From positions 1 to 64,000 of the forward strand of contig NZ_RZYA01000023.1 of assembly GCF_004005495.1 (NCBI RefSeq): a DNA stretch of 64,000 nt, written 5' to 3'. Of this stretch, positions 15,050 through 39,123 are shown piece after piece; position 1 is the first letter of the stretch, and each line of letters opens with the position of its first letter. Under the pieces are notes generated by a model. The model worked only from the letters and a program-made list of their open reading frames with translations, had not been told where the DNA came from and made no database searches. The position numbers and the translations under genes are program-made. This stretch comes from Streptomyces antnestii (GTDB lineage: Bacteria; Actinomycetota; Actinomycetes; Streptomycetales; Streptomycetaceae).

Positions 15050-15440
15050 AGTACCCCGTCGCCGACAAGGCAGGCATGACGGCCGGTCTCGCACCGGTTC
15101 GCCGCAGGGCCGCCGCCAGGCGCCGCGAGGCGGGGGCGACGTAACTTCGACGGTGGCGAAGTGCCCCACCAGGGCTCCCCGCAGCGCGCGGTGCAGGCCG
15201 AACAGAGAGATGAGGTTGACCGCGGCCAGCGCTTCCGCGGCCGCCGCGTCGACGTACGGTCCGTAGGCGGTGCACAGGCCGAGATCCGCCCTGACGTCGG
15301 CGACGAGCTGGGCGCGGTGCCCTCCGGACGCCTGGCGCCGAACTCGACGGCCACCAGTGCCGCCTTGGCGAGGCCGCGCAGCGGGGTCTAACCCAGGAGT
15401 GCGGATCGGCGTGAGAGCTTCGTCGATATCGGGCTGCGGC
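15050..15440 (-). pseudogene. Diiron/haem-oxygenase-like enzyme, decayed copy
   Basis: Fragments read LVADVRADLGLCTAYGPYVD, AAAEALAAVNLISLFGLHRA and LRGALVGHFATVEVTS, then in another frame SRRLAAALRRTGARPA. They match the intact protein at 37444-38475 piece by piece (LFADLMTDLGLDNRYGRYVD, NVMSLFGLHRSLRGALVGHF, SRRLATALRRAGAGPA). The N-terminal half and the C-terminal iron-ligand region are gone and at least one frameshift is present. Confidence 0.85.
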
Positions 15441-15555
15441 GCCGCGTCGGCGGGCACTGCCGCGAGGAACGACCGTGGACGACAGCCCCTGGGCTGGGTG
15501 AGTGGAGGGGCTGTGACGCGGCGCTCCTCGGCGTCTGGCTGCACGAGCAGATCCT

Positions 15556-15715
15556 TCCTCAGGTCATGGAACCACGGGTGGTTCCGGCTGCGTCCGCACC
15601 TGCAGATCGCGACGGTGAAGGGGAGGGGCGCGAGGCGAAGACCGTGCTGGCGTCATCCGTCACTTGGACGGGACCTTCCACCAGCAGGGGATCGCCGGGG
15701 CGACGGTGACACGGC
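15556..15715 (-). pseudogene. CDGSH iron-sulfur protein, decayed copy
   Basis: Reading with two frame changes gives RRVTVAP, GDPLLVEGPVQVTDDASTVF and FTVAICRCGRSRNHPWFHD. This aligns with the intact CDGSH protein at 38465-38767 (RRVTVDPDGPLLMEGPVEVV, FTVAICTCRRSRTYPWCDTS). The third cluster Cys is Phe here and the terminal Ser-His is lost, so it cannot bind the usual 2Fe-2S cluster. Confidence 0.8.
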
Positions 15716-15723
15716 GTGTGTGT

Positions 15724-16416
15724 TCAGACCTTTTCGGCGCGTATGACCACCAGTTCCTCCCAGCTCTGCGCCCCCATGAGTCCCTGTCGGCGCAGCCACG
15801 CCGCGCGGGAGCGCAGAACCGGGCCCAAGGGGATGCGGGCCCGATCGATGACCTCGGGACGAAGCCCTGCGTCGGTGAGCCCCTTCAGCGTCACTTCTGT
15901 TCCGGGCAGTGCCGACTGCACGAGCAGCAAAACTCCGCCGGGCCGCAAGGCTGAGGGAGCGGCATCACAAATGCGATCCAACAAAGCCCGTCCGTCGGGC
16001 CCCGCGTCCCAGGATCGCGCCTTGCCACGACTCGGCAGGTCGGCCGAAGGGGAGGGCACGTACGGGGGATTACTGACGATGATTTCGAACGAGGGACCCC
16101 GGAGCGCGGTTTCCAGGTCACCGTGGCGCACGATGACGTGCTGTCGGGACAGGTGAGCATTGAGACGTGCGGCCCACACCGCACGCCAAGAGATGTCGAT
16201 GGCGGTCACACGAGCACCCAAGCGGGCCGCCTGGATGGCGAGGGCACCGCTGCCGGTCCCCAGATCCAGCAGGCTGGTGGAGCGTCCTACGACCTCGCAC
16301 GACAGTGCTCGAGCGAGCATCCGGGTGTCGTTCTGCGGTGCGTACACGCCGGGCGGGCTGATCAAACGAGGCAGCCGCACCGCTGCCGTTGCTGATGGCT
16401 GCGCTTGCGTGGTCAT
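15724..16416 (-). CDS. HemK-like class I SAM-dependent methyltransferase
   Basis: 230 residues from ATG 16416. It has the SAM-binding motif LLDLGTGSGALAI and the catalytic NPPY (IIVSNPPYVPSP), which in HemK-type enzymes positions a Gln or Asn side-chain amide. It lacks the long N-terminal domain of PrmC, so it resembles the short Mtq2-like group. The decayed CDGSH and diiron-oxidase-like genes follow on the same strand. At the second locus (37.4-39.1 kb) the same three genes occur with this one destroyed. An in-frame Cys-rich stretch (CRSCPCGHSC) precedes the ATG. Confidence 0.85.
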   Translation of the reverse strand: MTTQAQPSATAAVRLPRLISPPGVYAPQNDTRMLARALSCEVVGRSTSLLDLGTGSGALAIQAARLGARVTAIDISWRAVWAARLNAHLSRQHVIVRHGDLETALRGPSFEIIVSNPPYVPSPSADLPSRGKARSWDAGPDGRALLDRICDAAPSALRPGGVLLLVQSALPGTEVTLKGLTDAGLRPEVIDRARIPLGPVLRSRAAWLRRQGLMGAQSWEELVVIRAEKV

Positions 16417-16451
16417 CGTTTTCCACTCTGTGGGAAGCGGTGCGTCACCGC

Positions 16452-16640
16452 TGCGACACGAGTGCCCGCAGGGGCAAGAACGACACATGGGCCCCTGAAG
16501 TGTGTTTGTGGGGTGCCGGAGGTGAGGGGCGTATCTGTTCACGTTCGAGAGGACGCCTCTCGGCGGATTGTCACGTCACTCGGGGACAGCGAACCTGATG
16601 CCGGTCGTCGATGTGTGGATGCAGCACCCCACGCTGCAAG
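16452..16640 (-). repeat. Diverged duplicate of 20572-20760
   Basis: The stretch carrying GACACGAGTGCCCGCAGGGG and, further on, CTCGGCGGATTGTCACGTCA recurs in diverged form at 20638 and 20733, in the same order and spacing. On the minus strand both copies encode the pattern GP-x-C-x-SCP-x2-HSC. In this copy the frame runs into the methyltransferase ATG. It may be a leader region or a conserved small ORF. Confidence 0.55.
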
Positions 16641-16717
16641 GCCTCGGCGAAGTCGCGTGACGCCCGGCTTGTGATCGTGGGGTCCCAGGAGGTGAGAGGC
16701 GCGGAACGTCCACGAAC

Positions 16718-17026
16718 TTGAGTGTTGATAGCTTCGCGCCCGTGATCGTGTATCCGCTGTGGCATGTCGGCCACCAGAACGAAGCCGGCGACGACGGCTC
16801 GACAGTGCACGTCGATGAGAGTGGCGTGTTCTGCGACGAGTCGGACGGCGACGACGTAAAGCTGCTCGGTATCTACTCAACCCTTGAACGGGTTGAAGAG
16901 CGCGTGCGTCAGGCCCGACTCCTACCGGGCTTCCGTGAGGAACCGGAGTGCTTCTACTTCGACGCCTGCGAGCTCGACGAGGGCGATTGGACCGAGGGCT
17001 TCGTTCGAGTTCCGCCGGGCGAGTAG
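16718..17026 (+). CDS. DUF7336-like hypothetical protein
   Basis: 102 residues, acidic, with VIVYPLWHVGHQNEAGDDGS, VKLLGIYSTLERVEERVRQA and GFREEPECFYFDACELDEGD. This resembles a widespread short family (DUF7336 as I recall) of unknown function, recognised by the VYxLWH opening and the repeated YST..A..R core. The start is uncertain: TTG 16718 or GTG 16742, which is closer to the conserved part. It stands alone. Confidence 0.7.
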   Translation: MSVDSFAPVIVYPLWHVGHQNEAGDDGSTVHVDESGVFCDESDGDDVKLLGIYSTLERVEERVRQARLLPGFREEPECFYFDACELDEGDWTEGFVRVPPGE

Positions 17027-17188
17027 GCCCGTGGGCGGAGTCTTGGCGGGATGCCGTTCCGTGGCCACGTAAGCCCCGGCTGCTCCTTCAGGAACCCCGC
17101 CGAGCCGGCAGATCACCACGAACCGGACGTCAAGCGACTACGCCGAAGCCCTGGCCTTCCACGCAGGCGATCGCCCGTCCGATTTTGG

Positions 17189-17740
17189 TCACGCAGGCTT
17201 TGCTGACGATTTCGCGAACTCCGCCAGAAGCGACTCGCAGAACGCCTCCAGGTCGTCCGGCTTGCGGCTCGTGATCAGTGTGTTGGGTCCGTCGTCGCAG
17301 ATCCGCACCCGCTCGTCGACCCAGGTACCACCCGCATTACGGATGTCTGTGCGCAGACTCGGCCACGAGGTGAGTACCCGGTCGGTGACGACGTCCGCTT
17401 CGATGAGGGTCCATGGGGCGTGGCAGATAGCGGCTACCGGTCGGCCAAGGTCGAAGAAGTCGCGGACGAACGAGACGGCCTGGTCGTCCACCCGCAGCGC
17501 GTCGGGATTAGCCACCCCGCCGGGAAGCACGAGGCCGTCGAAGGACTCGGCCGTGACCTCGCCGATGATCTCATCCACGGGAAACGTGTCGGCCTTGTCG
17601 AGATGGTTGAAGGCCTGGATCCGCCCGGAATTCGTCGACACGAGGACAGGCTCATCGCCCGCGTCGACGACCGCCTGCCAGGGGCCGGTCAGTTCCACCT
17701 GCTCGACGCCCTCGGGCGCTGTCAGAAATGCAATGCGCAT
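17189..17740 (-). CDS. DJ-1/PfpI family protein
   Basis: 183 residues with the class I glutamine-amidotransferase-like fold. The nucleophile elbow AAICHAPWTLIEA holds the catalytic Cys followed by His, and the N-terminal Glu of the family lies in PEGVEQVEL. Members include intracellular proteases, chaperones and methylglyoxal-detoxifying enzymes. The ATG at 17740 begins the conserved MRIAFLTAPEG. It stands alone between the DUF7336-like gene and a small membrane protein. Confidence 0.88.
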   Translation of the reverse strand: MRIAFLTAPEGVEQVELTGPWQAVVDAGDEPVLVSTNSGRIQAFNHLDKADTFPVDEIIGEVTAESFDGLVLPGGVANPDALRVDDQAVSFVRDFFDLGRPVAAICHAPWTLIEADVVTDRVLTSWPSLRTDIRNAGGTWVDERVRICDDGPNTLITSRKPDDLEAFCESLLAEFAKSSAKPA

Positions 17741-18281
17741 GGCTGCTCAAACTCCCTTGCTGCTCTGCTGATTGACGACGTACAGCCTTCGACGCCGGCT
17801 TCGGCGAGCTCGCCCTGCCCGTCGGCAGCGCAGCAACTCCTCGCCGTAAGGGAGGAGCACGCACGTGCCGATTGCGAGCGCTATACCCATGAGATAGCCG
17901 CGGGGCAGCGGCCGTCGGCGGGGCAGGAGCCGCCATGCGTCCGGGTCCGACCGGCCAGCGTCCAATAGGGACTTGACCTGGTCGCCGTGCAGGCACATCA
18001 ACGAGGCGAGCGCGGCGAAGGGCAGTGACTCCTCGCCCTTCGTCGACGAGCGAAGTGGACGATGGCACGATGACCCGCCTGCGTTTGGCGATGCTGGTGA
18101 AGGCGAGTACACCGATAACGCCGACGATCATCATGATCACGCCGACGATCATCATGATCACGCCGACGATCATCTTGATCACGCCGACTGCATCGAGGTT
18201 GACGCTTCGCATATGCCAGTCGGTGCCGAAGGTGAGAATGGCGCCTGCGCCGATGAGAAGAATGCATCCGCCTAAGCCCAT
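17652..18281 (-). CDS. DUF6458-like small membrane protein with expanded helix
   Basis: From ATG 18281 (GGAGG 8 nt upstream) the protein starts MGLGGCILLIGAGAILTFGT then DWHMRSVNLDAVGVI, the pattern of DUF6458 proteins, which normally have two membrane helices and about 80 residues. Here the second helix holds three copies of a 7-residue unit (MIVGVIM-like) encoded by a 21-bp tandem repeat. After FTSIAKRRRVIVP the frame runs on for about 140 residues of unlikely sequence to 17652, overlapping the PfpI gene. I think a frameshift near 18050 removed the normal stop. The real end is uncertain. Confidence 0.5.
   Translation of the reverse strand: MGLGGCILLIGAGAILTFGTDWHMRSVNLDAVGVIKMIVGVIMMIVGVIMMIVGVIGVLAFTSIAKRRRVIVPSSTSLVDEGRGVTALRRARLVDVPARRPGQVPIGRWPVGPGRMAAPAPPTAAAPRLSHGYSARNRHVRAPPLRRGVAALPTGRASSPKPASKAVRRQSAEQQGSLSSHAHCISDSARGRRAGGTDRPLAGGRRRGR
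18120..18182. repeat. 21-bp tandem repeat, three units
   Basis: Units GCCGACGATCATCATGATCA plus C occupy 18120-18140, 18141-18161 and 18162-18182; the first base of unit one and one base of the third differ. The repeat is in frame and adds 7 residues per unit to a membrane helix. Confidence 0.9.
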
Positions 18282-18862
18282 GGGATTCGCCTCCGGTGTC
18301 GGTGGGGATGGAGCAGGTCGCCCTCGGGTACCCGCAGCGTTCACCGCCATGCAGATCTGGGGTCCAGTGATGACCGGCCGGATATACACATGTGCCCCCG
18401 GGCCTGCGCCAGCACTCCAGCCGGACCCGCAAGCGTGTGACCGCGCCGCGTGGCAGGGCCCGGCTTCGCGCTTGTCGGTGGTGTTCCATGAGCCCCGACC
18501 GAGGTGATGGACTGATGTGGCTGTTGGACCGGCGAGGCCACATGCTGGCACCGGTTCGGTGGGTACATGCGTCTGTGTGTACTTCTTGGGCGCGGTGCCG
18601 TACGAGCTGTTCCCGATAGAATGGGCAGGTCCGGACCGCTTCGCAGCGGGCGGTGCATGTGGACCTCAGCCGGGAGCCGTTCCAGCAGAGCGGATGACAA
18701 GGAACCGTCGGTGACCGCGCGCGAGGCGCCAGGGACGGCGGTCAAGCGAAACTGGCCTTGGTACAGGCCTTGGTACAGGCGTTGGTGCAGGCCTTGATCG
18801 GGTCGGGCAGGCCGACGCCACCGCACGATTCTCGCCACGTGGAGACGTGAGGAGGGATGTCA
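18282..18862. other. Long intergenic region
   Basis: About 580 bases with no recognisable gene. It contains the 12-bp tandem repeat at 18754-18801 and the ribosome site of the STAS gene (GAGGAGGG, 18849-18856). Confidence 0.4.
18754..18801. repeat. 12-bp tandem repeat, four units
   Basis: GGCCTTGGTACA occurs exactly twice (18754-18765, 18766-18777), followed by GGCGTTGGTGCA and the weak GGCCTTGATCGG. It lies about 60 bp upstream of the STAS gene. Confidence 0.8.
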
Positions 18863-19270
18863 ATGCGCACGAACATCATCCGGCACGAGAACATGATGGT
18901 GAGCTACGACGAGGTCAACGGCTGGGCCGTCATCGAGGTCGACGGTGAGGTCGACGCCCACACCGCACCCATGATTCGCGAAGGCGTGATCAAGTTGCTC
19001 GATGAGGGACACCGCCACTTCGTCCTGGACCTGGGCTTTGTCACCTTCATGGATTCGATGGGGCTGGGCATGATCGTGGCGATCACCAAACGCGTCCGTG
19101 AACGTGAAGGCGCGCTGCGTTTCGCTTCCGTCCCGAGCCGGGTGCTGAGGCTCTTCGAGCTGAGTGGCCTGCGCGGGAGCTACGAGTTTCACGCCTCGAC
19201 AGCGGAAGCGACGGGATCTGCTCCCTTGCCCGGTAGCCTCGCGCACTGGCCGAATGCCCCGGCCGACTGA
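18863..19270 (+). CDS. STAS-domain anti-sigma factor antagonist
   Basis: 135 residues. The STAS core AVIEVDGEVDAHTAPMIREG and the phosphorylation-loop motif FVTFMDSMGLG (Ser65 as likely phospho-acceptor) match RsbV/SpoIIAA-type antagonists, which bind an anti-sigma kinase when dephosphorylated and so release a stress sigma factor. ATG 18863 was preferred over ATG 18857 because GGAGGG directly abuts the earlier one. No cognate kinase or sigma gene is adjacent. The last 35 residues are not conserved. Confidence 0.88.
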   Translation: MRTNIIRHENMMVSYDEVNGWAVIEVDGEVDAHTAPMIREGVIKLLDEGHRHFVLDLGFVTFMDSMGLGMIVAITKRVREREGALRFASVPSRVLRLFELSGLRGSYEFHASTAEATGSAPLPGSLAHWPNAPAD

Positions 19271-19647
19271 AGAGAGGCGCCATTCTGGGCGGGGCATCGT
19301 GCCCGGTGCTCCGAAAGACGCATAGGGATTTCCGTCCCCGCCGATCATTGGCGACGGCACATGCTCCGCGTCGCTCCAGCCGAACGTGCACCGCTCGCCG
19401 TCTCCGCGGCCGCGCTCCGTTCGGTCGATCACCAGGGTGGCGGTGGGCAGTTCGTCCAACATGGTCAGAGCGCGCTTCAGCCGGCACGCCACCAGAACCG
19501 GCAGTCGGTCGAGGTTCCGGCGGGGCGTTGGAGCGGTACGTGGACGCGACTATTCCGGTCGCTGACGGTCTCCGCATCCGGCAGGGCGGCGCGTCGGGGC
19601 GGGGCCGATCGTCGCAGCGCGGAACCCGTGAGCAAACCAGCCCTCCG
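19271..19647. other. Intergenic region, no gene supported
   Basis: About 380 bases between the STAS and HAD genes. Open frames exist on both strands but I recognise no family and see no ribosome site. It could hold a decayed gene. Confidence 0.35.
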
Positions 19648-20325
19648 CTAACCGCTCACCTGGGCGAGGACGCTCGTGTCGAGCTGGCCGAGGAGGTCTG
19701 CGGGGCTGTCGTACACGGCAGCAGCCCCCGCCTCTTCGAGGTCCGTACGCGGGATGCCCCCGCAGAGTACGGCGATGGCGCGCACACCTGCCGCGGTGGC
19801 CGCCCTCATGTCCCAGACCGTGTCTCCTACGAACACCGCCTGGTCGGCATCCGTTTCTGCCAGTTCCAGTGCCCGGTGCACGGGATCGGGAGCAGGTTTT
19901 CCCTCGGCCACGTCGTCCGCGCCGGCCACACCCCAGATGACGTCGTCCGCGCCAATGGCGCGGCGGAGAGACTTCAGCTCCGGGTCCCCGGCTGAGGTGG
20001 CCAGAACGATGCGCCAGCCTCGGCCGGCAAGATTTCTGAGCAGGTCCTGGGCGCCTTGCAACTGTGGCAGCCGATCGTTGTAGGTGCCGTACAACGCGGT
20101 GTGCGCGGCACTGATCTGTGCGTCCTGTTCCTTGTCACGGTTCTTACCGAGGAGGTGGGTGAGGATGTCGTCGGAGCCGAGCCCGATCGCGCGGTGGACG
20201 TCGTGCATCGGGACGTCGTGCCCGGCCTGTCGGAACGCTTCCCACCACGTCACGACGTGCAGATGATTGGTGTCGACGAGTGTGCCGTCGACGTCGAACA
20301 GAGCGGCGCGTGCCACGAGCCCCAC
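19648..20325 (-). CDS. HAD-family phosphatase
   Basis: 225 residues with all HAD motifs: I at FDVDGTLVDT (nucleophile Asp), II at VLATSAG, III Lys in EGKPAPDP, and IV at VFVGDTVWD. A helical cap between motifs I and II marks it as subclass I (phosphoglycolate phosphatase or beta-phosphoglucomutase-like). The substrate is unknown. About 250 bp upstream lies a diverged copy of the region that precedes the methyltransferase at 16.4 kb. Confidence 0.88.
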   Translation of the reverse strand: MGLVARAALFDVDGTLVDTNHLHVVTWWEAFRQAGHDVPMHDVHRAIGLGSDDILTHLLGKNRDKEQDAQISAAHTALYGTYNDRLPQLQGAQDLLRNLAGRGWRIVLATSAGDPELKSLRRAIGADDVIWGVAGADDVAEGKPAPDPVHRALELAETDADQAVFVGDTVWDMRAATAAGVRAIAVLCGGIPRTDLEEAGAAAVYDSPADLLGQLDTSVLAQVSG

Positions 20326-20571
20326 CTGCCTTTCGATGTGTCATGGTCGTGACCGCATTTGCTTCTGAGGATGGCGCATTACCAGGCAGAGGACATCTTG
20401 CCGGCGTCGCTGACGACGGTGGCGGCACTCAGCTGGGTGCGGCTGGTTCCGCGGGCTTCCCCCCTCGGAGGGAGAAGTCCTCGGCGTTTCCTTGACAGGG
20501 GGCGCGAGGCCGTCGACGGACTGACTTTAATGAGAGCTCTCGGCCTATTCGGAGTGACGCCCCTCCAGTGT

Positions 20572-20760
20572 TAGGCCACGCAGCCCGTTGGGGAAACCTT
20601 CAGTATCTCGCGGGCTGCGCTCTCAGGCTGCAACCAGTGACACGAGTGCTCATCAGGACAAGAAAGACAGGTGGGTCCCCTGAGGCGGTCGTGGGCCCCC
20701 TACTCAAAGGCAGGCGGCAGGCTATACGCCGCTCGGCGGATTGCCAGGTCACCGGGGGGC
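20572..20760 (-). repeat. Diverged duplicate of 16452-16640
   Basis: Contains GACACGAGTGCTCATCAGGA and GCTCGGCGGATTGCCAGGTC in the same order as at 16.4-16.6 kb. On the minus strand it encodes LRGPTCLSCPDEHSC and stops at 20573 (TAA), against LQGPMCRSCPCGHSC in the other copy. Several differences are synonymous, suggesting that the stretch was translated. Confidence 0.55.
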
Positions 20761-20807
20761 GCTGAAAGTAGTGGCACCATTCGTCGCCGATTGTCCTGGA
20801 GGCAGCA

Positions 20808-21143
20808 TTGAGTCCCCGTCCTCACGAGCAGCGGAGCGATGAGCCTGCGGAGAAAGTCCCTGAGGGGCCGGTGCTGAAGCGGGAGGGCGGAGTAGGCCAG
20901 CCCCAGCCCGGAGCCTTCGACGCCGTAGTCGATCAAGCGGCAGGTGTGATCATCGCCGTTGGACGGATGTCCTCGGCCGAAGCCTGGGACGTCCTGCGTG
21001 AGACGTCGATGCGCACGGACATCAAGCTCCGTCATGTTGCTGAGCTGCTCGTCGAATGGGGCCGCTCGGGCGTGTTGTGCGCCGACATCCGTACAGAGCT
21101 GGCTCGCCAGTTCGCCCAGCGAAGGCAGGCGCCCGAGATCTGA
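20808..21143 (+). CDS. ANTAR-domain protein
   Basis: 111 residues. Residues 38-95 match the ANTAR RNA-binding fold (AAGVIIAVGRMSSAEAWDVL then RETSMRTDIKLRHVAELLVE). ANTAR proteins act as antiterminators, usually with a GAF or STAS sensor domain, which is absent here. The start is TTG 20808, supported by GGAGG (20798-20802) 5 nt upstream. A STAS-ANTAR fusion is encoded 0.8 kb away on the other strand. Confidence 0.82.
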   Translation: MSPRPHEQRSDEPAEKVPEGPVLKREGGVGQPQPGAFDAVVDQAAGVIIAVGRMSSAEAWDVLRETSMRTDIKLRHVAELLVEWGRSGVLCADIRTELARQFAQRRQAPEI

Positions 21144-21302
21144 CGAAGTGCACGTGCTGCGCCAACGCATGAGGATTGGGTATTCGGAGAGGTGGTCAGA
21201 CGTCGGCAGGAAGCGAACGGCGTTACGTGTCCTGGCGGTTGGGTACCCGGCCGCCATGGACTGTTTGGGGCAACTCGAACACGGCCGATCCGGCAATACG
21301 TG

Positions 21303-21637
21303 ATGATGAGGCGCCCGAGAACGGTCGTTGTGACGGGTGCGAGCGGAAGTGTGGGCCGTACGGCCTTGGCTGCTGCCGCCCACGGGGACAAGGTTGCCCT
21401 CTCGGCCCGGGGAGCGTCGGACTGGACTGGACTGGACTGGACTGGCTGCGCCAGCGGATGAGGTGCGGGATGCAGGCGGCAAGGCCCTCGTCGTCATCTT
21501 CGAATGGGGCCGATGCCAAGGCCGTTGAGTGTGCTGCTCGACAAGTGGTGGACGTGTTTGACCCAACCGACGTTCGGGTCAACAACGCGTTCGCCGGAGT
21601 CTTCGCCCCTGTCGCCGAGGTCACGCCCGACGAGTAG
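21303..21637 (+). pseudogene. Short-chain dehydrogenase, N-terminal remnant
   Basis: The frame from ATG 21303 reads PRTVVVTGASGSVGRTALAA (NAD(P)-binding motif), then breaks at a GGACT repeat. The protein continues in other frames as PADEVRDAGGKALVV and QVVDVFDPTDVRVNNAFAGV, ending TPDE followed by TAG where family members continue with Tyr. At least two frameshifts are present and the catalytic YxxxK half is missing. Confidence 0.85.
21419..21443. repeat. Pentanucleotide repeat (GGACT)x5
   Basis: Five perfect GGACT units inside the dehydrogenase pseudogene. Their number sets the reading frame, and the present number takes the frame to a stop at 21461. Confidence 0.95.
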
Positions 21638-21914
21638 CGAGGATGTCCCCTTGAAAGACTGCGTCGCCAAGGACCTCAAGCACCGCAGGATCGGCTCCTC
21701 GAGCCTGCTTGTGGCCCGGGGGCGTGAACCCGATTCGGCCCTGGTTGCGGTGCTCCGTCAGGGCCTCGAGCACGGGAGCGCGTGACTGATCCTTTTCGGA
21801 GTGCATGGCACACGGGCTCCCGAGTCGGCGGAAGATCGATGGGGCTGTTGAATGTCGTGCACCTACCCGCCCGGGCGCGTGGAGGTGTGTGACCGTGGCG
21901 GGACGGGCCGGCGC

Positions 21915-22649
21915 TTACGTTTTCTGCAGTTCTGTGATGCTCGCGGCGACTTGGTGCCGGATCGGCACCGGGAGCGGTTCACCCGTGACAGATCGGACGA
22001 GGTCGTCGGCCACCTTGTGGAGTTTGGTGTTCGTGTTCTGGGACACCGAGACCAGGACGGACCACGCGTCCTCGGGTTCCAGCCCGAAGGTAGCCATCAG
22101 GACGCCCCGGGCGAGGTCGATGACGGGCCGGGTCTTCATGGCCCTCCGGAGTTGGGCGAGTTCGATCCGGTCGACCTCGCCTGACGAGGGCGCCTCGTGG
22201 CCGTGGTTTTCGCGGTCCTCATTCGGGCCCTGTCCTGGCCCGGCCCGCTTATCCAAGGTGGCGAAAAGAGACAGAGTGCCAGTGCCTGTGAGTATGCGGT
22301 GCACCTCAGGACTGCAAGCTTGGAGAAATATGCTCTTGCCTTCGTTCAGGGCGCGGCGCTGCTCACTCAGCAGAACGTTGAGGCCGGAACAATCGCAGAA
22401 GTTGACCTTACTGAGATCGAGATCGATTCCGTCGCTCGACTGGAGCAGGGCCCGGCGCAAACCGTTCTGCAACGCCTGCTGGCTGACGATGTCGGCGGCC
22501 CCGGACACCGTCACGAGCATGCGCTCCGGCGCAGGCTCCATCGTGATGGTGAGCGGTGGCTCGTGGTCGGTGGACGGGTGTGCAGACACGTGTGGCTGGA
22601 CACCTTGCACCGCTGTGTTCTTCGTCGATAGACCTGCGCGTCCTGGCAT
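21915..22649 (-). CDS. STAS-ANTAR fusion regulator
   Basis: 244 residues. Residues about 35-135 form a STAS domain (LTITMEPAPERMLVTVSGAA, with VNFCDCSGLNVL as the phospho-loop). Residues about 175-235 form an ANTAR domain (RPVIDLARGVLMATFGLEPE then AWSVLVSVSQNTNTKLHKVA). This architecture couples partner-switch signalling to RNA antitermination. ATG 22649 has GGAG 8 nt upstream; the frame is open to 22715. TTGACG on the minus strand near 22720 is a possible -35. It is divergent from an HTH gene. Confidence 0.88.
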   Translation of the reverse strand: MPGRAGLSTKNTAVQGVQPHVSAHPSTDHEPPLTITMEPAPERMLVTVSGAADIVSQQALQNGLRRALLQSSDGIDLDLSKVNFCDCSGLNVLLSEQRRALNEGKSIFLQACSPEVHRILTGTGTLSLFATLDKRAGPGQGPNEDRENHGHEAPSSGEVDRIELAQLRRAMKTRPVIDLARGVLMATFGLEPEDAWSVLVSVSQNTNTKLHKVADDLVRSVTGEPLPVPIRHQVAASITELQKT

Positions 22650-22768
22650 AGCAGCCACTCCATCGCGGTTCGTGCGTCTTCCCCTCCTCAAGACTCTGCC
22701 CGCGGCACCGCACACGTCAATAGATACACGAAATTCGATTCGCCTTTTTAAATACGTGAATCAAACAC

Positions 22769-22774
22769 TACCCT
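22769..22774 (+). promoter_or_regulatory. -10 box of HTH gene
   Basis: TACCCT lies 7 nt before ATG 22782, no Shine-Dalgarno is present, and the upstream 22740-22765 is AT-rich, so a leaderless message is plausible. Confidence 0.45.
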
Positions 22775-22781
22775 TGGCTGT

Positions 22782-29100: not shown

Positions 29101-29118
29101 GTCGGTGCCAGGCGCTGT

Positions 29119-30722: not shown

Positions 30723-32812
30723 CCTTCTTGAACGAACTGGATGCCATCGGCCGCGGCCTGCCCCGCCGGGACGGGCCCGCCAAGGTCCTGGGCACGGCTG
30801 TGTACGCCTACGAGACCCCGCTGGAAAACGCCGCCTACGTCTGTCCCGTCCAGGCCACGATCGCCCGGGGGACGGTCTCTCAGCTGGACACCACCGCAGC
30901 CGAAGCTCTCGACGGAGTGGTCGCGGTGCTCACCCCCGCCACTGCGGAGCGATTGGCCTCCACCGAGGACAGGGAACTTGCGACGCTGCAGGACCGGAAG
31001 ATCGCCTTCCGTGGACAGGTCATCGCAGCGGTCGTCGCCGACAGTTCGGAGGTGGCGCGGCACGCCGCCGCTCTGATCCGTGTGACCTACGCGCAGGCTG
31101 CGCACGACTGCGAACTGCGGGCCGACCGTGATGATCTGTACGCGCCCGAGCGGGTCAACCCGGACTTTCCGACCGACACCACCGAGGGCGACGTCGACGC
31201 CGCCATGGCGGCCGCGGAGGTGACCGTCGAGCAGACGTACTCCACCGCGATGTATCACAACAATCCGATGGAGCCGCATGCCACGGCGGCACTCTGGGAT
31301 CCGGCGGGGGACGGCTCCCTCACCCTGTGGGACTCTACACAGGGCGTCCACCCGACCCGGGCCACCCTGGCCGCCGTGTTCGGCCTCGACGAGGCACAGG
31401 TCAGGGTCGTCTGCCCGTACGTGGGAGGCGGCTTCGGCTCCAAAGGGCAGCCCCACGTCAACGTGGTGCTCGCCGCGCTGGCCGCACGCGCGGTCCCTGG
31501 CCGGCCCATGCGTCTGGCTCTGACCCGCCAGCAGATGTTCGCCCTCGCCGGCTACCGCACCCCGACGATTCAGCGATGCCGCCTCGGTGCCGACCACGAC
31601 GGCACTCTCACCGCCCTCGAGATCAACGTCGTCGAACAGACATCAAAGGTCAAGGAGTTCGCCGAGCAGACGGGCGTTCCCGCCCGGATGATGTACGCCT
31701 CGCCGAACCGGCGGACCACACACCGGCTTGCCGCCCTCGACGTCCCGCCGCCCTCCTGGATGCGCGCCCCCGGCGAGTGCCCCGGCATGTTCGGACCCGA
31801 GGTGGCGATGGATGAGCTGGCCGAACGCCTGGGCATGGACCCGGTCGAGCTCCGGATCCGCAACGAGCCCGACGTCGAACCCGGCTCGGGCAAGCCCTTC
31901 TCCAGCCGGAACCTGGTCGGGTGCCTGCGCGAGGGCTCCGCACGGTTCGGCTGGTCGGAGCGCGACCCGCGCCCGGGCGTACGCCGCCGGGGTGCCTGGC
32001 TGGTCGGTACGGGCGTCGCGGCGTCCACCTACCCGGTGAGCAGGATGCCCGACTCGACGGCGACGATCCGACGGGAAGGCGACCGCTACGTCACCGAGAT
32101 CGGCGCAGCCGACCTCGGCACCGGCACGTGGACCACACTGGCGCAGATCGCGGCAGACGCGCTCGGCGTACCAGTCTCGCGCGTAGATGTGCGGATCGGA
32201 GACACCGACTACCCGATGGCGTCGGTGGCCGGGGGTTCGTCGGGCATGACGACGTGGGGTTCGGCTGTTGTCGAGGCCGCTCGCGCCTTCCGCTCCAGGT
32301 ACCGTACCGAGCCGCCGGACGGGGCCGAGGCGTCCGGCGTGGTGCAGCCGCCCGACGACCGCTACGCGATGCACGCCTTCGGCGCGCAGTTCGCCGAGGC
32401 ACACGTCCATACGGACACGGGGGAGGTGCGGGTGCCGCGCCTGCTCGGCGTGTTCGCCGCGGGCCGGATCATCAACCCGCGCACGGCCCGTTCGCAGTTC
32501 ATCGGTGGCATGACGATGGGCCTGTCCATGGCACTGCACGAGATCAGTGTGCTCGACCCCCGCACCGGTCATGTCGTGAATCACGACTTCGCCGACTACC
32601 ACATCACAGCTAACGCGGATGTCGACGAGATCGAGGCGCAATGGCTCCCCGAGCACGACCCGCACGTCAACGCCATGGGATCGAAGGGCATCGGGGAGAT
32701 CGGCATTGTCGGCACGGCCGCAGCGGTGTCCAATGCCGTGTGGCACGCGTGCGGTGTTCGTGTACGGGACCTACCGATCACGCTGGACAAGGTGCTGCAC
32801 GCGCTGGAGTGA
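30719..32812 (+). CDS. Molybdopterin-binding subunit of molybdenum hydroxylase (YagR-like)
   Basis: 697 residues. Hallmarks are YVGGGFGSKGQPH (molybdopterin contact), PPPSWMRAPGECPGMFGPEV and the C-terminal GSKGIGEIGIVGTA, which carries the catalytic Glu. By analogy with E. coli PaoABC the complex may oxidise aromatic aldehydes to acids, but the substrate is not provable from sequence. No XdhC/PaoD-type maturation chaperone is encoded next to it. Its ATG overlaps the FAD-subunit stop. Confidence 0.92.
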   Translation: MTFLNELDAIGRGLPRRDGPAKVLGTAVYAYETPLENAAYVCPVQATIARGTVSQLDTTAAEALDGVVAVLTPATAERLASTEDRELATLQDRKIAFRGQVIAAVVADSSEVARHAAALIRVTYAQAAHDCELRADRDDLYAPERVNPDFPTDTTEGDVDAAMAAAEVTVEQTYSTAMYHNNPMEPHATAALWDPAGDGSLTLWDSTQGVHPTRATLAAVFGLDEAQVRVVCPYVGGGFGSKGQPHVNVVLAALAARAVPGRPMRLALTRQQMFALAGYRTPTIQRCRLGADHDGTLTALEINVVEQTSKVKEFAEQTGVPARMMYASPNRRTTHRLAALDVPPPSWMRAPGECPGMFGPEVAMDELAERLGMDPVELRIRNEPDVEPGSGKPFSSRNLVGCLREGSARFGWSERDPRPGVRRRGAWLVGTGVAASTYPVSRMPDSTATIRREGDRYVTEIGAADLGTGTWTTLAQIAADALGVPVSRVDVRIGDTDYPMASVAGGSSGMTTWGSAVVEAARAFRSRYRTEPPDGAEASGVVQPPDDRYAMHAFGAQFAEAHVHTDTGEVRVPRLLGVFAAGRIINPRTARSQFIGGMTMGLSMALHEISVLDPRTGHVVNHDFADYHITANADVDEIEAQWLPEHDPHVNAMGSKGIGEIGIVGTAAAVSNAVWHACGVRVRDLPITLDKVLHALE

Positions 32813-32875
32813 TGGTCCGTTCGGTGCACGCCGGCCCGCCACGCAGGCCGCCAGCGGCCGAATCGCGCCGTGATG

Positions 32876-33412
32876 TCAGAAGTGGATATCGGCAGTGCTC
32901 GGGATGTTCGCCGCCATGTTGCGCTCCATCATCCGCAGCGCTGCATCCGCGAGGTCTTCATGGATGTGGGCGACCGCGTCGCGTGGCACGGTCACGTCCA
33001 GATGGCGGATGTGGGCATCGAGCGCCGAGTAGAGGACACACTGCTCGGTGACCTGGCCGCACAGCACGACATGCCCTATCCCCTGCTGTCTCAGCAGGTA
33101 GCTGAGCGGGGTCTCGAAGAAGATCGAGTGGCGTGCTTTGACGACGAAGAGGGACTCCTGGTCAGGGCTGAGAGGGCGCACCAGATCGGCGTGCGGTCCA
33201 GCGAGAGCCGTCTCGAGGATCTCGCCGTGGTGCGATCTCCACTGCCCGAAGTTGTCGTTGGCGTAGATCACGGGGACGTCGTGCCGGCGCGCGCCCTCCA
33301 GCAGGTTCACGATGGCGGGTACCGCAGCCTGTGCGGCGGGGAGCAGAAGGTGCGCGTCGTCGTGGTCGTACGTGTTGATCATGTCGATGACGACGACTGC
33401 TGTCTTTCCCAT
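32876..33412 (-). CDS. Isochorismatase-like cysteine hydrolase
   Basis: 178 residues. Asp10 in AVVVIDMINTY, the Lys in FVVKARHSIF and the nucleophile Cys in CGQVTEQCVLYSALDA form the isochorismatase-fold triad. The family includes nicotinamidase, N-carbamoyl hydrolases and isochorismatases; the substrate here is unknown. It lies 48 nt downstream of the mrpD remains on the same strand, with no hairpin between, so it may be the last gene of that operon. Confidence 0.88.
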   Translation of the reverse strand: MGKTAVVVIDMINTYDHDDAHLLLPAAQAAVPAIVNLLEGARRHDVPVIYANDNFGQWRSHHGEILETALAGPHADLVRPLSPDQESLFVVKARHSIFFETPLSYLLRQQGIGHVVLCGQVTEQCVLYSALDAHIRHLDVTVPRDAVAHIHEDLADAALRMMERNMAANIPSTADIHF

Positions 33413-33460
33413 GCCGACTTCTTCCTTTCCGCGGACCGGGCGGTGCGAGAGGGCCCACCT

Positions 33461-35273
33461 TCACCAGAGGAGCACGGTCAGCAGGGCCATGCCTGCCAAG
33501 GTGAACGCGACGTAGTCGCCCAGGTGGCCCGACTGGAGGCGGTGGAGGGGCGCTGCCCAGCGGGACGGTTCGTCGGTCGCGGGCCGGCGCGTCGCCGTCC
33601 AGGCGAGGGCGACGGCGAGGGCCGCGGAGACAAGGCCGAGGGTGACGCCGATGCCCGTCCAGTGGGGTGCGGGTGTGACTGGAGGAGGGGCCGCTTCCGT
33701 CGTGCCCAGCACGGCTGCCGTGTAACCGGCATGGTCGGTGAACACGTCGGCTGCCCTGCCGACCGCCGGCCACAGCCACGGGACCACCCCTACGGCCAGA
33801 GCGCCCGCCATGAGCGCCACAGGTACGGCGAGCATCGTGTCCGGGATGCGCCTCAGCGGGCCACGTGTCTCCGGTTCCTCGTCCGTGCCGGGCGTGGTCT
33901 CCGGGTCAGTCGAGGGGCGGGGGCCCCAGCCACGGAAGATACGTGCAGACGCACGCAGGACCGCGCCTCCCGTGAGCGCCGAGGCGGCCACGAAGGCGAC
34001 GGTCGGCCACCACCCCGCGGCTTCCTCGGACACTGCCTTGCCCAGGCCCGTGCCGAAGGGCGGCAGCCCGGCGAGCGCGAGGCCACCTGCCGCGAACAGC
34101 ACGCCGATCAGGGGGAGTTGGTGTCCCCGTCCATACAGTTCGTGTTCGTCGACACTGCTGAAACGGTCCAGGAGGATGCCCGCGCAGGCGAAGAGGGCGG
34201 CCTTCACTCCCGCGTGGGCGAGGACGTAGAGGATGGTGCCGCCGAGGCCCTGCGGGCTGAGGACCGAGACGCCGATGAGGAACAGGCCCGTGTGCGAGAC
34301 GCTGGAGAAGGCGAGCAGCCGCTTCAGGTGGCGCTGCTGCCCAGCACATCACGGCACCTACGAGGGCGGTGAGTACGCCGATGGCCAGCAGGGCGCGGTG
34401 CACGGCGGATCCCGGGATGCCGCCGGGACCGGCGAACACGGTCCAGTACACGCGTGCCGCGCCGTAGACGCCGAGCTCGACCATCACTCCGGACAGCAGG
34501 ATGCACACGGGCGTCGGGGCGACGGCATGGGCGTCGGGGAGCCAGAAGTGGAAGGGTACGGCCGCCGCTTTGACGAGGAGCCCGGTGAGCACCAGGACGA
34601 AGGCGGCCAGAACCAGGGCGTCCGGGCGCCCGTCGTGCGGGTGCGTGTCGAGTCGGCCGCCGATCTGCGCGAGGCCGAGCTCGCCGGTGCGTGCGTACAG
34701 CAGGCCGACGCCGAGCAGAGTGGTGTAGCCGCCCAGCGAATTGACGATGCCGAAGGTCAACGCCCCCTGGACCGCCCGGGCTTCCTCGACCCGGTAGCCG
34801 GTAAGGGCGTAGGCGACCACACCCATGAGTTCGAAGAAGACGAACGCGTTGAAGAGATCGCCGGTAAGGGCGAAGCCGCACATGCCGGCCTGGAACAGCA
34901 GGATGAGGGCGGGGAACGCGCCCGCGTGCCGGTGCGGTGGTTCGTCGAAGTACCGCCAGGAATAGGCGAGCGCGGCGAGCACGAGGACGGAGGTGAGAGC
35001 GGCGAGCCCGACGCCGACCCGGTCGCCCACGAGCACGATCCCGACGCTCACTCCGTCACGGGGACGCCATCCGCCCATCCACTCGACGGCACGCGAGTCC
35101 GCCGACGGCAAACGCACCAGGAGAGCGACAGCCCACGCGGCCGCGCCCGCGCAGAAGACAAAACCCATCACCTCGGCGGCGAACCTGGGCAACCGCCGGC
35201 CCGCCGCGACCAGCAGCGCCGCGCCCAACAGAGGGGTGGCCACGACCAGAGGCAGGAGCGGCGCGGCTGTCAC
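33461..35273 (-). pseudogene. mrpD: Mrp antiporter subunit D (NuoN-like), frameshifted
   Basis: From GTG 35273 (overlapping the mrpC stop) the frame reads [40 protein letters not shown] and [20 protein letters not shown], the proton-translocating MrpD/NuoN core. After VGAVMCWAA, at about 34340, the frame is lost. The sequence continues one base off as [20 protein letters not shown] and then [16 protein letters not shown] to the stop at 33461. One indel in GCAGCAGCGCC explains it. It is either a recent loss of function or an assembly error, since both halves are otherwise well preserved. Confidence 0.85.
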
Positions 35274-35617
35274 CCTCGCAGCTCCCTCAGTTCGTCCGGA
35301 TCGACGGTCCCGTGCCGCTTCGCGGTCTGGATGACGAGCGCGAGCAGCAGCGCGGTGACCGTGGCGCCCACGACGACATCGGTGAGGGCGAGCGCCTGGA
35401 CGACCGGGTCCACCACGGGGCGGGAGCCGGGGGCGATGTCTGAGAAAACGGGAGCGGTGCCGCCCCGGCGGTACCCCACGGCGAGCAGCAGCACGTACGT
35501 CGAACTCTGGCACACGGACAGGCAACCGACCGCGTGGATCAGATTGCGGCTCGTGGCCAGTCCGTAGCAGCCGGCGAGGAAGATCCATCCGGCAGCGAGA
35601 TACGGCAGCACGCTCAT
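35270..35617 (-). CDS. mrpC: Mrp antiporter subunit C (NuoK-like)
   Basis: 115 residues with three membrane helices: [35 protein letters not shown] and the end [20 protein letters not shown]. This is MrpC/MnhC, homologous to complex I NuoK. Its ATG overlaps the mrpB stop (ATGA) and its stop overlaps the mrpD GTG. Membrane subunit of a Na+(K+)/H+ antiporter complex. Confidence 0.9.
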
Positions 35618-36387
35618 CACCGCCTCCCCTCCTCGTCGTGTCGCCGCGGCCCGCCCGCTCCGCCGCCCTCGATCTCCAGGGCCTGATCGAGGAAGCGGGC
35701 GAGCAGGACGACGATCGCGCCGGCCACCTCCACCCCGATCGCGGCGTTGAGGAGCGGGACGGTGCCGCCGGAGGAAAGGGTGTTGAGCGTTCCGTACGGC
35801 AGGAAGTTGGCGAGGAACGCCGAGCCGGCGAGGAGTCCGGCCGTCCCCAGCAGGACGTAGGCGGCCTCGCCTGCAGCGTCCGCGACCGCGTAGGCGGCGG
35901 CAGGTCTGATGTGCTCCAGGGCCTTGTAGTCGACGGCGATGTAGAGGAGGTGCAGCGCGGTCGCCGCGATGACGCCGCCCTGGAAGCCGCCGCCTGGGCT
36001 GAGCTGGCCGTGCGCGATGACGTAGAGGCCGATGAGCAGGGTGACCGGCAGTGTGATCAGCGCGTAGCGGCGTACGGGAGGGTCGACGTGGACCGGCTCG
36101 GGCGGTTCGCTGTGCTCGTCGCGGGTCTCGCGGAGCAGGACGACGGTGCCGAGGACGGCGGCGAACAGGATGGACTCCTCGCCGAGGGTGTCGAAGGCGC
36201 GCTGGTCGAAGTTGACTGAGGAGATGGCGTTCGCGGTGTGCCGGGCGAGGGCGCTGCGGACCGCGCGGTCGCCGTACGGATGCGAGGTGCCGCCGAAGCC
36301 GGGAAGGTCGAAGACAGCAAAGGCGAGGAGGACAGCCACGCCGATGCCCCCGACCGCGAGTAGCCACAGCCGCGCCTTCTTGCTCAC
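35617..36387 (-). CDS. mrpB: Mrp antiporter subunit B (MnhB domain, with MrpA-tail-like N-terminus)
   Basis: 256 residues. The first part ([20 protein letters not shown], then [20 protein letters not shown]) resembles the C-terminal end of large MrpA. The second part ([20 protein letters not shown] then [20 protein letters not shown]) is the MnhB domain. So this gene combines segments separated as mbhE and mbhF in archaeal Mbh complexes. It overlaps its neighbours by 1 and 4 nt. Confidence 0.88.
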
Positions 36388-36653
36388 CGCGGCTCCCTCG
36401 CCCGTCCGTCGTGCCTGCCACGGCCGCGCACCTTGCGGACCGCGAGCAGAAGCATCAGCGGCGTCAGGGCGGACCCGACCGCGAGCTGGGAGAGGGCCAC
36501 GTCCGGAGACTGCAGAACGGTGAACACGACGGCGAGCGCGAGCCCGAGCAGAGCCAGTACGAGGGCCTGACGGGCCGGGTTGCGGGTGAAGACGGCGGCG
36601 GTAGCGGCGGCCACCACAAGCGTCAGCGCCAGGACGATCAGCAGGTCAGCCAT
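36384..36653 (-). CDS. DUF4040 / MbhD-like antiporter subunit
   Basis: 89 residues, three helices: ADLLIVLALTLVVAAATAAV, ALVLALLGLALAVVF and VALSQLAVGSALTPLMLLLA. The segment QSPDVALSQLAVG is the DUF4040 signature found in the C-terminal part of MrpA and in MbhD (NuoJ-like). It stands as a separate gene, as in Mbh clusters. It overlaps both neighbours by 4-8 nt. Confidence 0.85.
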   Translation of the reverse strand: MADLLIVLALTLVVAAATAAVFTRNPARQALVLALLGLALAVVFTVLQSPDVALSQLAVGSALTPLMLLLAVRKVRGRGRHDGRAREPR

Positions 36654-37113
36654 CGTGTGTCTCCCGTTGCAGGTGCGCCCCGCCCGCCATCGCCCGACCC
36701 GAGACGGTGTTGCCCGCCATCAGCAGTGCACCGATCACCAGCAGCTTTGCGAGGGAGCGGCCTGGACCCGTCACCACACAGAGCGGTAGGACGAGCGGCG
36801 GCGCCGCTACTGAGAGCGTCGTCATCGCGCGTGCGACACGGGCCGTGGGCGGGACGGCCGCCAACTCGTCGGCGAGCAGCCGAGCGTAGACGAGCGTCCC
36901 GGCCGGTCCCAGGACCGAAAGGACCAGGCCGAGGTCGATGTACGCGGGGCGGGCGTAGCCCTGGGCCAGCAGCAGCATCACCAGGCACACGAGGAGCGTC
37001 GCGAGGTTCTGCGCGACGACTCGACGCCGGACCGGACCGGTGGCCGCGCCCCAGAGGGCCGGTCCCACGCCGAGTACCAGCAGCGTGGCGGCCGCTACGA
37101 GCCAGCCGTTCAC
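36646..37113 (-). CDS. Mrp antiporter subunits F and G fused in one protein
   Basis: 155 residues from GTG 37113. The first 80 (VNGWLVAAATLLVLGVGPAL ... YARPAYIDLGLVLSVLGPAG) read as one short membrane subunit and the rest (PPLVLPLCVVTGPGRSLAKL then LVIGALLMAGNTVSGRAM) as another, about six helices in all. Mrp operons normally carry mrpF and mrpG here as separate genes of about 90 and 110 residues. Which half is F and which is G is only tentative. Confidence 0.65.
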   Translation of the reverse strand: MNGWLVAAATLLVLGVGPALWGAATGPVRRRVVAQNLATLLVCLVMLLLAQGYARPAYIDLGLVLSVLGPAGTLVYARLLADELAAVPPTARVARAMTTLSVAAPPLVLPLCVVTGPGRSLAKLLVIGALLMAGNTVSGRAMAGGAHLQRETHDG

Positions 37114-37378
37114 CGCGTCCGGCCCGGAGCACGGCGGAGCAGCAGCAGCGGCAGCAGGACGACGCGCGACGTCACGCGGATCAGCCCCGCCCCGTCGCGG
37201 CGACGCGCGCCGCGCGGGCGGCGAAAGCGGCGACCAGGGCGGCGCACGATCCGACCACCCACTCCAGCAAGTCGACACTGGAGATCAGCACGAGTCAGAG
37301 AACCGTCAACACCACCCACCAGACCACCAGTTCGGCGGTGACACGCAGGGGCGTAGAGCCCGCGACCGAACGAGCCAT
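37110..37378 (-). pseudogene. mrpE: Mrp antiporter subunit E, broken
   Basis: From ATG 37378 the frame reads RVTAELVVWWVVLTVL, then a TGA at 37297-37295 where TGG (Trp) is expected, then LVLISSVDLLEWVVGSCAAL. A later frameshift near 37205 is needed to reach GLIRVTSRVVLLPLLLLRRA, the conserved MrpE end, which stops at 37110 overlapping the next GTG. One nonsense and one frameshift change make a sequencing artefact less likely than for mrpD. Confidence 0.8.
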
Positions 37379-37443
37379 GAGCCCACCTCCCGCCAACCCG
37401 GGTGCCCGGCCGTCAGGTTCTTATGCCGTTGTCTGACATCTCG

Positions 37444-38475
37444 TCAACCTCGCCGGTGCGGTTCCAGTGGTGCGCGCAGCGCGCTACGGCCGTCGTACCA
37501 AGCATTCAAGAGGTGTCTGCCGAGGAGTTCTTCGAGGAAGACGGTGGCCTGCACACCGAGGGAGACGGAGGGGGCGAGTTCTGGTTCGTCCGACAGGAGC
37601 CCGTCGACGACCTCGTGGCGCACCACTTGCTCGTGGACGGCGTCGGCTTCCACGTGCTCGTCGTAGAAGCGCGCCGCGGCCGGTCCGGCACCGGCGCGGC
37701 GCAGGGCCGTGGCCAATCGGCGCGAGCCGGGGGAGGACGTCACCTCGACGGCGGCGAAATGGCCCACCAGCGCTCCGCGCAAGCTGCGGTGCAGGCCGAA
37801 CAGCGACATGACATTGACGGTGGCCAGCGCCACTGGGGGCGCGAGATCCACGTAGCGGCCGTAGCGGTTGTCCAGTCCGAGATCGGTCATGAGGTCGGCG
37901 AAGAGCTGGGCGTGGATGTCCTCGGCCCGCCCAGCTCCGAACTCGTCGAACTCGATGGCCACCATGCCCGCCTTGGCACGTCCCCGCAGACGCGGGATGA
38001 CCCAGGCATGCGGATCGGCTTCCTTGAGGTGGTAGAGCGATCGCAGGGCAGCGTACTCACGGAGCTGTTCCAGCGTGCCGTCCCTCTGCAGGAAGTGGCT
38101 CACGCTCGACGCGTCGTGGCCGACGGGCTCCAGCAGCAGTGGCGCGAGCGCGGCGTCCGCGTCGACCCGCGGGGGTACGTCCGCCCGCAGCGCGGCCAGG
38201 AAGCGCTCCTCGAGACGCGCGCGCAGGGCCAGGAGGCCGACGTCCCATTCGAGCTCGTCACGCACCCCGGCGAATCCCTGGTAGTGCATCTCGTAGAGGA
38301 CGTACAGGGAGAGCTGGAGGTCGTCCCCGTACGGGTCGACGCTGGTCAAGGGTGCGCGCGGGCTCGATACGGAAGCCGCCCCGCGAAGGGCGTCGACCAC
38401 GTGCCGCGAGATGTCGCCGCGCGGAGTGGGAAGAACGTGTCCGCGGGGGCTGGTCTCGCAGGTCTCAGGATCCAC
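37444..38475 (-). CDS. Iron-containing redox enzyme (haem-oxygenase-like diiron fold)
   Basis: 343 residues. It belongs to the haem-oxygenase-like iron-containing redox family: LSLYVLYEMHYQGFAG, VAIEFDEFGAGRAEDIHAQL, MSLFGLHRSLRGALVGHFAA and FYDEHVEADAVHEQVV contain the Glu, His and Asp residues expected to bind two irons. Related enzymes cleave or hydroxylate small organic substrates. The ATG overlaps the end of the CDGSH gene by 11 nt, so the CDGSH protein may be its electron donor. A decayed paralogue is at 15050-15440. The substrate is unknown. Confidence 0.88.
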   Translation of the reverse strand: MDPETCETSPRGHVLPTPRGDISRHVVDALRGAASVSSPRAPLTSVDPYGDDLQLSLYVLYEMHYQGFAGVRDELEWDVGLLALRARLEERFLAALRADVPPRVDADAALAPLLLEPVGHDASSVSHFLQRDGTLEQLREYAALRSLYHLKEADPHAWVIPRLRGRAKAGMVAIEFDEFGAGRAEDIHAQLFADLMTDLGLDNRYGRYVDLAPPVALATVNVMSLFGLHRSLRGALVGHFAAVEVTSSPGSRRLATALRRAGAGPAAARFYDEHVEADAVHEQVVRHEVVDGLLSDEPELAPSVSLGVQATVFLEELLGRHLLNAWYDGRSALRAPLEPHRRG

Positions 38476-38767
38476 AGTCGGGCTCGCTCCCTCGGTCCTG
38501 CGGCCCGGCCGGACGTGTGACGGCGGCTGATGCCTCTGTCGAAGCAGGGGCGTCTGCCGCCGTGATCCGAGGCTTCGGGCGAGCCCGGTGGCTCGTGTCG
38601 CACCACGGGTAGGTGCGGCTGCGGCGGCAGGTGCAGATCGCCACGGTGAAGCGGCGGGAGACGGACACTGTGCCGTCGTCGGCGACCACTTCGACTGGGC
38701 CCTCCATCAGTAGAGGTCCGTCCGGATCGACGGTGACCCGGCGCGGTCGCTCAGATGCGTGCGGCAT
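38465..38767 (-). CDS. CDGSH iron-sulfur domain protein
   Basis: 100 residues. VAICTCRRSRTYPWCDTSHR carries the C-x-C...C-D-x-S-H arrangement that binds a redox-active, pH-labile 2Fe-2S cluster (three Cys, one His). The strand before it (VTVDPDGPLLMEGPVEVV) is standard for the single-domain family. ATG 38767 is inferred from conservation. It precedes and overlaps the diiron-like enzyme and follows the ruins of a methyltransferase, the same order as the 15-16 kb module. Confidence 0.9.
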   Translation of the reverse strand: MPHASERPRRVTVDPDGPLLMEGPVEVVADDGTVSVSRRFTVAICTCRRSRTYPWCDTSHRARPKPRITAADAPASTEASAAVTRPAGPQDRGSEPDCGS

Positions 38768-39123
38768 GGATGACCACCGGTCCTTCCCTGTCCTCCTCGC
38801 CCGAGAGCGCCCAACGGCGGAGCCAGGACGCACGAGAGCGGAGAACCGTCCGAAGGAGGTGCCACGTTGATGACGAGGTCGTACGTTCCCGTACATCGCG
38901 ATCGTCAGGTCCCCGTGCCGTACGGTGCCGTGCTCCTGGGCCTGAGGCGCGTTGAGGCGAGTGGTCAGCACGGCGGCCCGTGAGCGGGCTCCCGATGCAG
39001 CGCCCAGGTGAGTATCCCGGTGTCGTACAGCGGTGCGTACACGCCATGCGGCCTCAGCCACCGGGCCTGGGGAACGGACTCAAGCGTCGGTGCCCGAGCC
39101 CGTGCTGGTGCCGGGGGAGTCAT
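38755..39123 (-). pseudogene. HemK-like methyltransferase, decayed copy
   Basis: Three fragments in different frames match the intact gene at 15724-16416: ARWLRPHGVYAPLYDTGILT (vs RLISPPGVYAPQNDTRMLAR), AAVLTTRLNAPQAQEHGTVR then HGDL (vs AAVWAARLNAHLSRQHVIVR, HGDL), and RSRASWLRRWALSGEED (vs RSRAAWLRRQGLMGAQS). The SAM motif I and the NPPY region are deleted. Confidence 0.85.

Follow-up and report, generated by a model that had tools for sequence, protein, structure and literature searches.

Complementary remnants of two diverged methyltransferase, CDGSH protein and haem-oxygenase-like enzyme gene sets in Streptomyces antnestii

Gene content of the two loci

The DNA analysed here (the window) comprised 64,000 nucleotides of Streptomyces antnestii (NCBI RefSeq assembly GCF_004005495.1, contig NZ_RZYA01000023.1, positions 1 to 64,000, forward strand). 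Three genes occur in it twice: those for a HemK2-like methyltransferase (M), a CDGSH iron-sulphur protein (C) and a haem-oxygenase-like dimetal enzyme (HDO; H). At locus 1 (15.08-16.42 kb) M is intact and C and H are ruined. At locus 2 (37.44-39.12 kb) C and H are intact and M is ruined. The gene order M-C-H is common to both loci (Table 1). A preliminary description, made from the sequence alone, had reported this arrangement, the shared order and the alignment of the fragments, and was borne out on each point. M of locus 1 forms a single open frame, C and H of locus 2 match their Pfam families, and all three ruins contain frame-changing indels when aligned to intact relatives. The M ruin of locus 2 also has gaps of 97 and 221 nucleotides relative to those genes. 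Comparison of locus 1 with locus 2 gave three matching blocks of 70-84% identity (best E value 1e-59), an alignment score far above chance.

H is represented in this genome by one full copy (locus 2, match at 37447-38475) and the locus 1 ruin (match at 15128-15316, 68% identical, E value 2e-19). A second intact set was not found in the genome; the next M-like matches were at most 43% identical over parts (best E value 6e-12). One working copy of each gene is therefore distributed over the two loci, as had been proposed. The preliminary description had named two outcomes that would count against its proposal, rare adjacency of the three genes and another complete module in this genome. Neither was encountered.

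Table 1. Positions of the M, C and H copies and of the gene adjoining locus 1.
Feature	Position	Strand	Remarks
M, intact HemK2/MTQ2-like methyltransferase, locus 1, lineage A	15724..16542	-	Single open frame; probable start ATG at 16416; NPPY motif
C ruin (CDGSH), locus 1	15560..15728	-	3' of M; alignment to intact relatives
H ruin (HDO), locus 1	15080..15545	-	3' of M; best-aligned part 15080-15410
M ruin, locus 2, lineage B	38752..39122	-	3' end overlaps start of C; aligns in segments
C, intact CDGSH-type protein, locus 2	38465..38767	-	Motif CxC...WCDTSH; Pfam zf-CDGSH 3.6e-15
H, intact HDO (PF14518), locus 2	37444..38475	-	Pfam Haem_oxygenas_2 5.2e-57
Ppx/GppA phosphatase-family gene adjoining locus 1	14046..15041	-	Relative also near the trio elsewhere

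Decay and constraint

Changes unique to the window copy were counted at sites where the intact relatives L013, L163 and L165 agree. The pooled ruins had 0.112 changes per site at codon positions 1 and 2 and 0.108 at position 3. The corresponding rates for the intact window genes were 0.050 and 0.177 (Fisher's test on changed sites, ruins versus intact genes, P = 0.001), and the control genes of relatives had their highest rate at position 3 in nine of nine cases. The pooled ruins lack a codon-position bias and are thus without coding constraint. Pairwise dN/dS to the nearest relative (NG86) was 0.28 for M, 0.23 for H and 0.07 for C. By this measure and by codon position the intact copies look constrained. 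Sequencing error was considered as a source of false pseudogenes and rejected, given the two large gaps, the several indels and the nil codon bias of the pooled ruins.

Two lineages

At the DNA level all three parts of locus 1 were nearest to genome G185 (M, 80.4%; C ruin, 76.1%; H ruin, 80.5%), and all three parts of locus 2 were nearest to Streptomyces sp. NBC_01446 (C, 86.6%; H, 83.0%; M ruin, 80.7%). Trees placed M with G185 (SH-aLRT 99) and H with NBC_01446 (98), and FastTree agreed. The whole M-C-H set is present in both G185 (L163) and NBC_01446 (L013). Since each locus shares one nearest relative throughout, and both relatives carry whole trios, the loci derive from two diverged, formerly complete copies. 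To judge from these affinities, two sets of different descent met here and decayed in complementary fashion. The earlier term "duplicated module" was right as to the two copies and too simple as to their history, because the copies come from two separately diverged lineages. They may have come together through either an old duplication or transfer. Trios were found on large linear plasmids, and two of the three plasmids examined were typed as mobilizable. Beyond its whole trio, NBC_01446 (G319) has two short partial matches to H (C3:775489-775924 and C1:743060-743186, 83 and 87%), which are perhaps more decayed copies.

Co-occurrence and linkage in the genus

The genus sample consisted of 131 genomes that were at least 95% complete. 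At least one of the three genes was present in 106 of them: H and C in every one and M in 105, so that 105 of the 106 have all three. The expectation that a full set is maintained was upheld to this extent, the genes being kept or lost together. In a smaller sample of 61 relatives, the genomes with C and those with a strong H match were identical (41 genomes). M was present in 37 of them, and one more genome matched H weakly.

Linkage in the 105 genomes was judged by eye from coordinate tables. M, C and H lay within 10 kb in 95 genomes and farther apart in 10. The genes are 21 kb apart in the present genome (G000). M lies approximately 194-223 kb from C-H in G013, G131 and G134, which perhaps share one event. 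H is separated from M-C by 2.7 Mb in G079 and 8.0 Mb in G120, and from M by approximately 10 kb in G062. G093 has M-C and, 248 kb away, a second C with H, and in G095 and G140 the genes are on different contigs of draft assemblies. Only one of the 106 genomes has a partial set, although linkage is broken in approximately one in ten. Ruins were sought at 12 of the other split loci, in G013, G079, G093, G120, G131 and G134 (G062, G095 and G140 being left out), and none were detected at E value cut-offs of 1e-3 or 1e-4. The window is therefore unusual in retaining both ruins.

Additional incomplete sets occur in G063, G080, G091, G114 and G078. M of G069 and of G132 matched in two pieces; it aligns in one frame and is not counted among the defective copies.

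Gene neighbourhoods in the genus and the class

Neighbourhoods were compared at 80 named loci, which were the best matches to H rather than a random sample (74 from Streptomyces). Ten loci shorter than 12 kb were dropped. At 69 of the remaining 70, a single 13-kb stretch contained all three genes, and the other locus had M without C. The three-gene neighbourhood is thus conserved, as had been predicted. Among 111 locus rows, 40 had the order M-C-H and 33 the order H-M-C with all genes on one strand; the rest include mirrored, split-hit and divergent arrangements. Proximity kept despite changed order argues for functional linkage. A Ppx/GppA-family gene was found in the trio stretch at 23 of the 70 loci.

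Class-wide, relatives of H were present in 176 of 345 sampled genomes and in 52 of 126 genera. A set of 46 loci was assembled, 40 fetched from 40 genera plus six others. A GT2 glycosyltransferase gene was found near H at 16 loci (L157-L159, L182-L184, L188-L190, L193-L195, L197, L198, L200 and L207), M (E value below 1e-40) at 11 and C (gap to H of at most 1.7 kb) at 41. M and GT2 were together at none of the 46 loci. C stood alone at 14, and none of C, M and GT2 was present at five. The GT2 proteins beside C-H carry hydrophobic C-terminal stretches, and one of them matched Pfam Glyco_tranf_2_3. The core of the system across the class is, on the evidence of gene content, C-H, with a third gene that is apparently exchangeable (M or GT2) or absent. 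M is thus not a universal member of the three-protein unit of the preliminary description. At L213, on a plasmid of Streptomyces sp. NBC_00984, a gene for a Rieske 2Fe-2S protein (10074-11024) lies near H; its product is possibly another electron carrier.

Stress-type setting

By their annotations, the plasmid trio loci are surrounded by genes for SigB-type sigma factors, SpoIIE, STAS, CsbD, universal-stress and gas-vesicle proteins. One or more of the ten stress-type genes used as queries occurred at 22 of 70 trio loci and in one of 40 control 13-kb stretches (P = 1e-4), where the queries were picked after three plasmid regions and the window had been viewed, the 40 control positions were hand-placed rather than random and the loci are not independent. 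Class-wide, stress-type genes were present at 15 of 40 loci. Ku, CsbD, universal-stress and SsgA genes were each found at none of the 70 loci and are not regular close neighbours. This setting is suggestive of a stress or dormancy response of the sigma-B type. A link to methylarginine, raised by a dimethylargininase gene adjoining the trio on one Kitasatospora plasmid, was dropped when the gene was found at none of the 70 and none of the 40 loci.

The proteins and their closest known systems

H was modelled with a pLDDT of 89.6 as a haem-oxygenase-like helical bundle. Its best PDB matches included HrmI (TM about 0.70), SznF, RohS, FlcD and CADD. Residues E152, E178, H188, E244, H274, D278 and H281 were invariant in 39 alignment rows, and in a profile alignment the family motifs KEADPH, DEFGaG...H, VE and EHVEADAVH aligned with the glutamates, aspartate and histidines of SznF. 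The conserved Glu, His and Asp residues are presumably metal ligands. H thus has the fold and the conserved metal-site residues of an HDO, and dimetal O2 chemistry is predicted for it. It shares these features with the N-oxygenases SznF, HrmI and RohS. In contrast to them, H is only approximately 18-20% identical, is paired with C and has no biosynthetic cluster visible here.

C has approximately 100 residues, with PF09360 (3.6e-15) as its only Pfam domain. Its PDB matches were 3tbn, 6avj (CISD3) and 3tbm. C45, C47, C56 and H60 were invariant in 22 rows, which gives C the three cysteines and one histidine of the cluster site in CDGSH iron-sulphur domain proteins. In the motif WCDTSH a threonine replaces the glycine of CDGSH. 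Seven types of CDGSH protein have been described (PMC3174974).

M scored 100.1 bits against the cut-off of 87 for TIGR00537 and fell below the cut-off for several narrower equivalog models. NPPY was invariant in 37 rows, and the closest PDB structures were those of N6AMT1/HemK2. The HemK2/MTQ2 likeness thus extends to both motif and profile. An NCBIfam profile search returned no family for H or C at a meaningful score.

An HDO gene paired with the gene for an iron-sulphur redox protein is also described in the MboAB paper (PMC13185094); according to its authors, MboA-MboB may be the first dedicated pair of an HDO and its redox partner. The conservation of C near H class-wide resembles that pairing. 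MboB differs, being described there as a flavin plus Fe2S2 reductase, whereas C is a small CDGSH protein. HDOs studied to date require no protein effector, as stated in a 2026 review (PMC13108848). DtpC of Acinetobacter, from another phylum, is an HDO by prediction. It reportedly shields dried cells, restricts H2O2 and depends on its predicted metal residues (PMC13232832). Like H it is HDO-type with a tie to stress survival, the two being compared by description only. The E-x9-H spacing of H agrees with that of DtpC in the same paper, which also reports co-transcription of DtpC with a catalase gene, unlike H. The term "iron-sulfur" had no match in the text of this paper. The literature search returned no paper linking an HDO with a CDGSH protein. 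The families are known, and their combination is not described in the literature searched.

Interpretation

On balance, and with limited confidence, we lean towards a reading in which two M-C-H sets were present, redundancy permitted their decay and the three genes serve one process. The genome would once have had two complete sets, one of the lineage found in G185 (A) and one of the lineage found in NBC_01446 (B). Redundancy would have allowed both to decay, leaving M from A and C and H from B. H may activate O2 on a small substrate and oxidise it, with the CDGSH [2Fe-2S] protein C as the putative electron donor, and M may add an N-methyl group to that substrate, to the product or to a partner protein. 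GT2 would replace M in other actinobacterial families. Either enzyme would complete the product or act beside it, under stress. The joint retention or loss of the trio in relatives suggests that an O2-using enzyme cooperates with a small iron-sulphur protein and a methyltransferase, and the redox/methylation function previously proposed for it is plausible.

Several observations weigh against this reading. Three random losses among six genes would spare one of each in 8 of 20 ways (P = 0.4), so that the decay pattern says little by itself and the genus comparison carries more weight. Selection for the set, which the preliminary description had derived from reciprocal decay, is accordingly not supported in that form. 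The co-occurrence is itself confounded by linkage and shared descent. The sole partial set, in G068, has kept C and H and has no M. In G002, G027 and G078 M is spread over two frames, from either decay or sequencing error, and the H copies of G121 and G138 are incomplete. Outside the genus, M is absent from most of the sampled families. The H ruin taken alone changes more at position 3 (0.152 versus 0.074 and 0.069), which would fit a later end to its constraint. No single category of the ten stress-type genes was significant, with the exception of the Ppx gene.

Neutral decay, in which redundant copies lost genes randomly and the full surviving set is luck, would not imply a joint function. 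It accords with the chance calculation above and with the incomplete sets known in other genomes, and the pattern would be even less telling if C and H of locus 1 were perhaps lost in one event. Set against it are the completeness of the set in 105 of 106 genomes, including ten in which the genes are not close together, and the constrained appearance of the intact copies; we judge it unlikely. A narrower alternative is that C and H alone cooperate, as dimetal enzyme and electron donor, while M often lies nearby but serves a different purpose. The class-wide counts (C near H at 41 of 46 loci, M at 11), the C-H pair of G068 and the out-of-frame copies of M agree with this. Within the genus, however, M accompanies C and H in all but one genome, and of the 35 class-wide loci that lack M, 16 have GT2, which looks as though the pair required some third function. 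This alternative is possible, though doubtful.

For the function, the closest rival is direct protection of the DtpC kind, in which H with C itself uses up O2 or peroxide, or retains iron, in drying or dormancy, and M is accessory. The reported shielding of dried cells by DtpC and its limitation of H2O2 (PMC13232832), and the stress-type genes near the trios make it a tentative candidate. Yet H is closest to biosynthetic N-oxygenases, the third gene encodes a transferase, which better fits a product, and the likeness to DtpC is one of description and not of sequence. Protein or peptide modification is also conceivable, H hydroxylating and M methylating a protein in the manner of release-factor glutamine methylation by the HemK family. 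The TIGR00537 score and the nearest structures of M favour it. The replacement of M by GT2 fits a small molecule at least equally, and we consider modification of a protein distinctly unlikely.

A broader form of the favoured reading is a widespread actinobacterial stress system, with the CDGSH protein as the HDO's dedicated electron donor and an exchangeable third enzyme (M or GT2) finishing a protective metabolite or modification. We think this somewhat unlikely. If true, it would assign a role in physiology to bacterial CDGSH proteins with a single motif, and an HDO and its redox partner would be paired in a new way. A conserved C-H pair would open two questions to experiment, the role of small bacterial CDGSH proteins and the electron source of HDOs outside biosynthesis. 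The window is a gene set caught surviving on the remnants of two copies.

Other features of the window

Just outside locus 2, open frames at 40293-41203 occupy more than one frame and by eye resemble transposase genes, which is the family we take them to belong to. Mrp-type antiporter-like genes adjoin locus 2 at 33906-37278, with an apparent frame disruption near 34 kb (both by eye). Two inverted pairs, 25503-25829/47404-47731 and 39319-39487/47818-47986, are 75-83% similar and add to the diverged gene duplicates of this region. A near-exact 21-nucleotide tandem repeat with at least three copies lies at 18114-18188. Gas-vesicle-like, Ku-like and UdgX-like genes were recognised by eye. Beside the gas-vesicle-like genes (also named by eye), 15-nucleotide repeats at 7590-7784 encode a lysine/alanine-rich, histone-H1-like tail.

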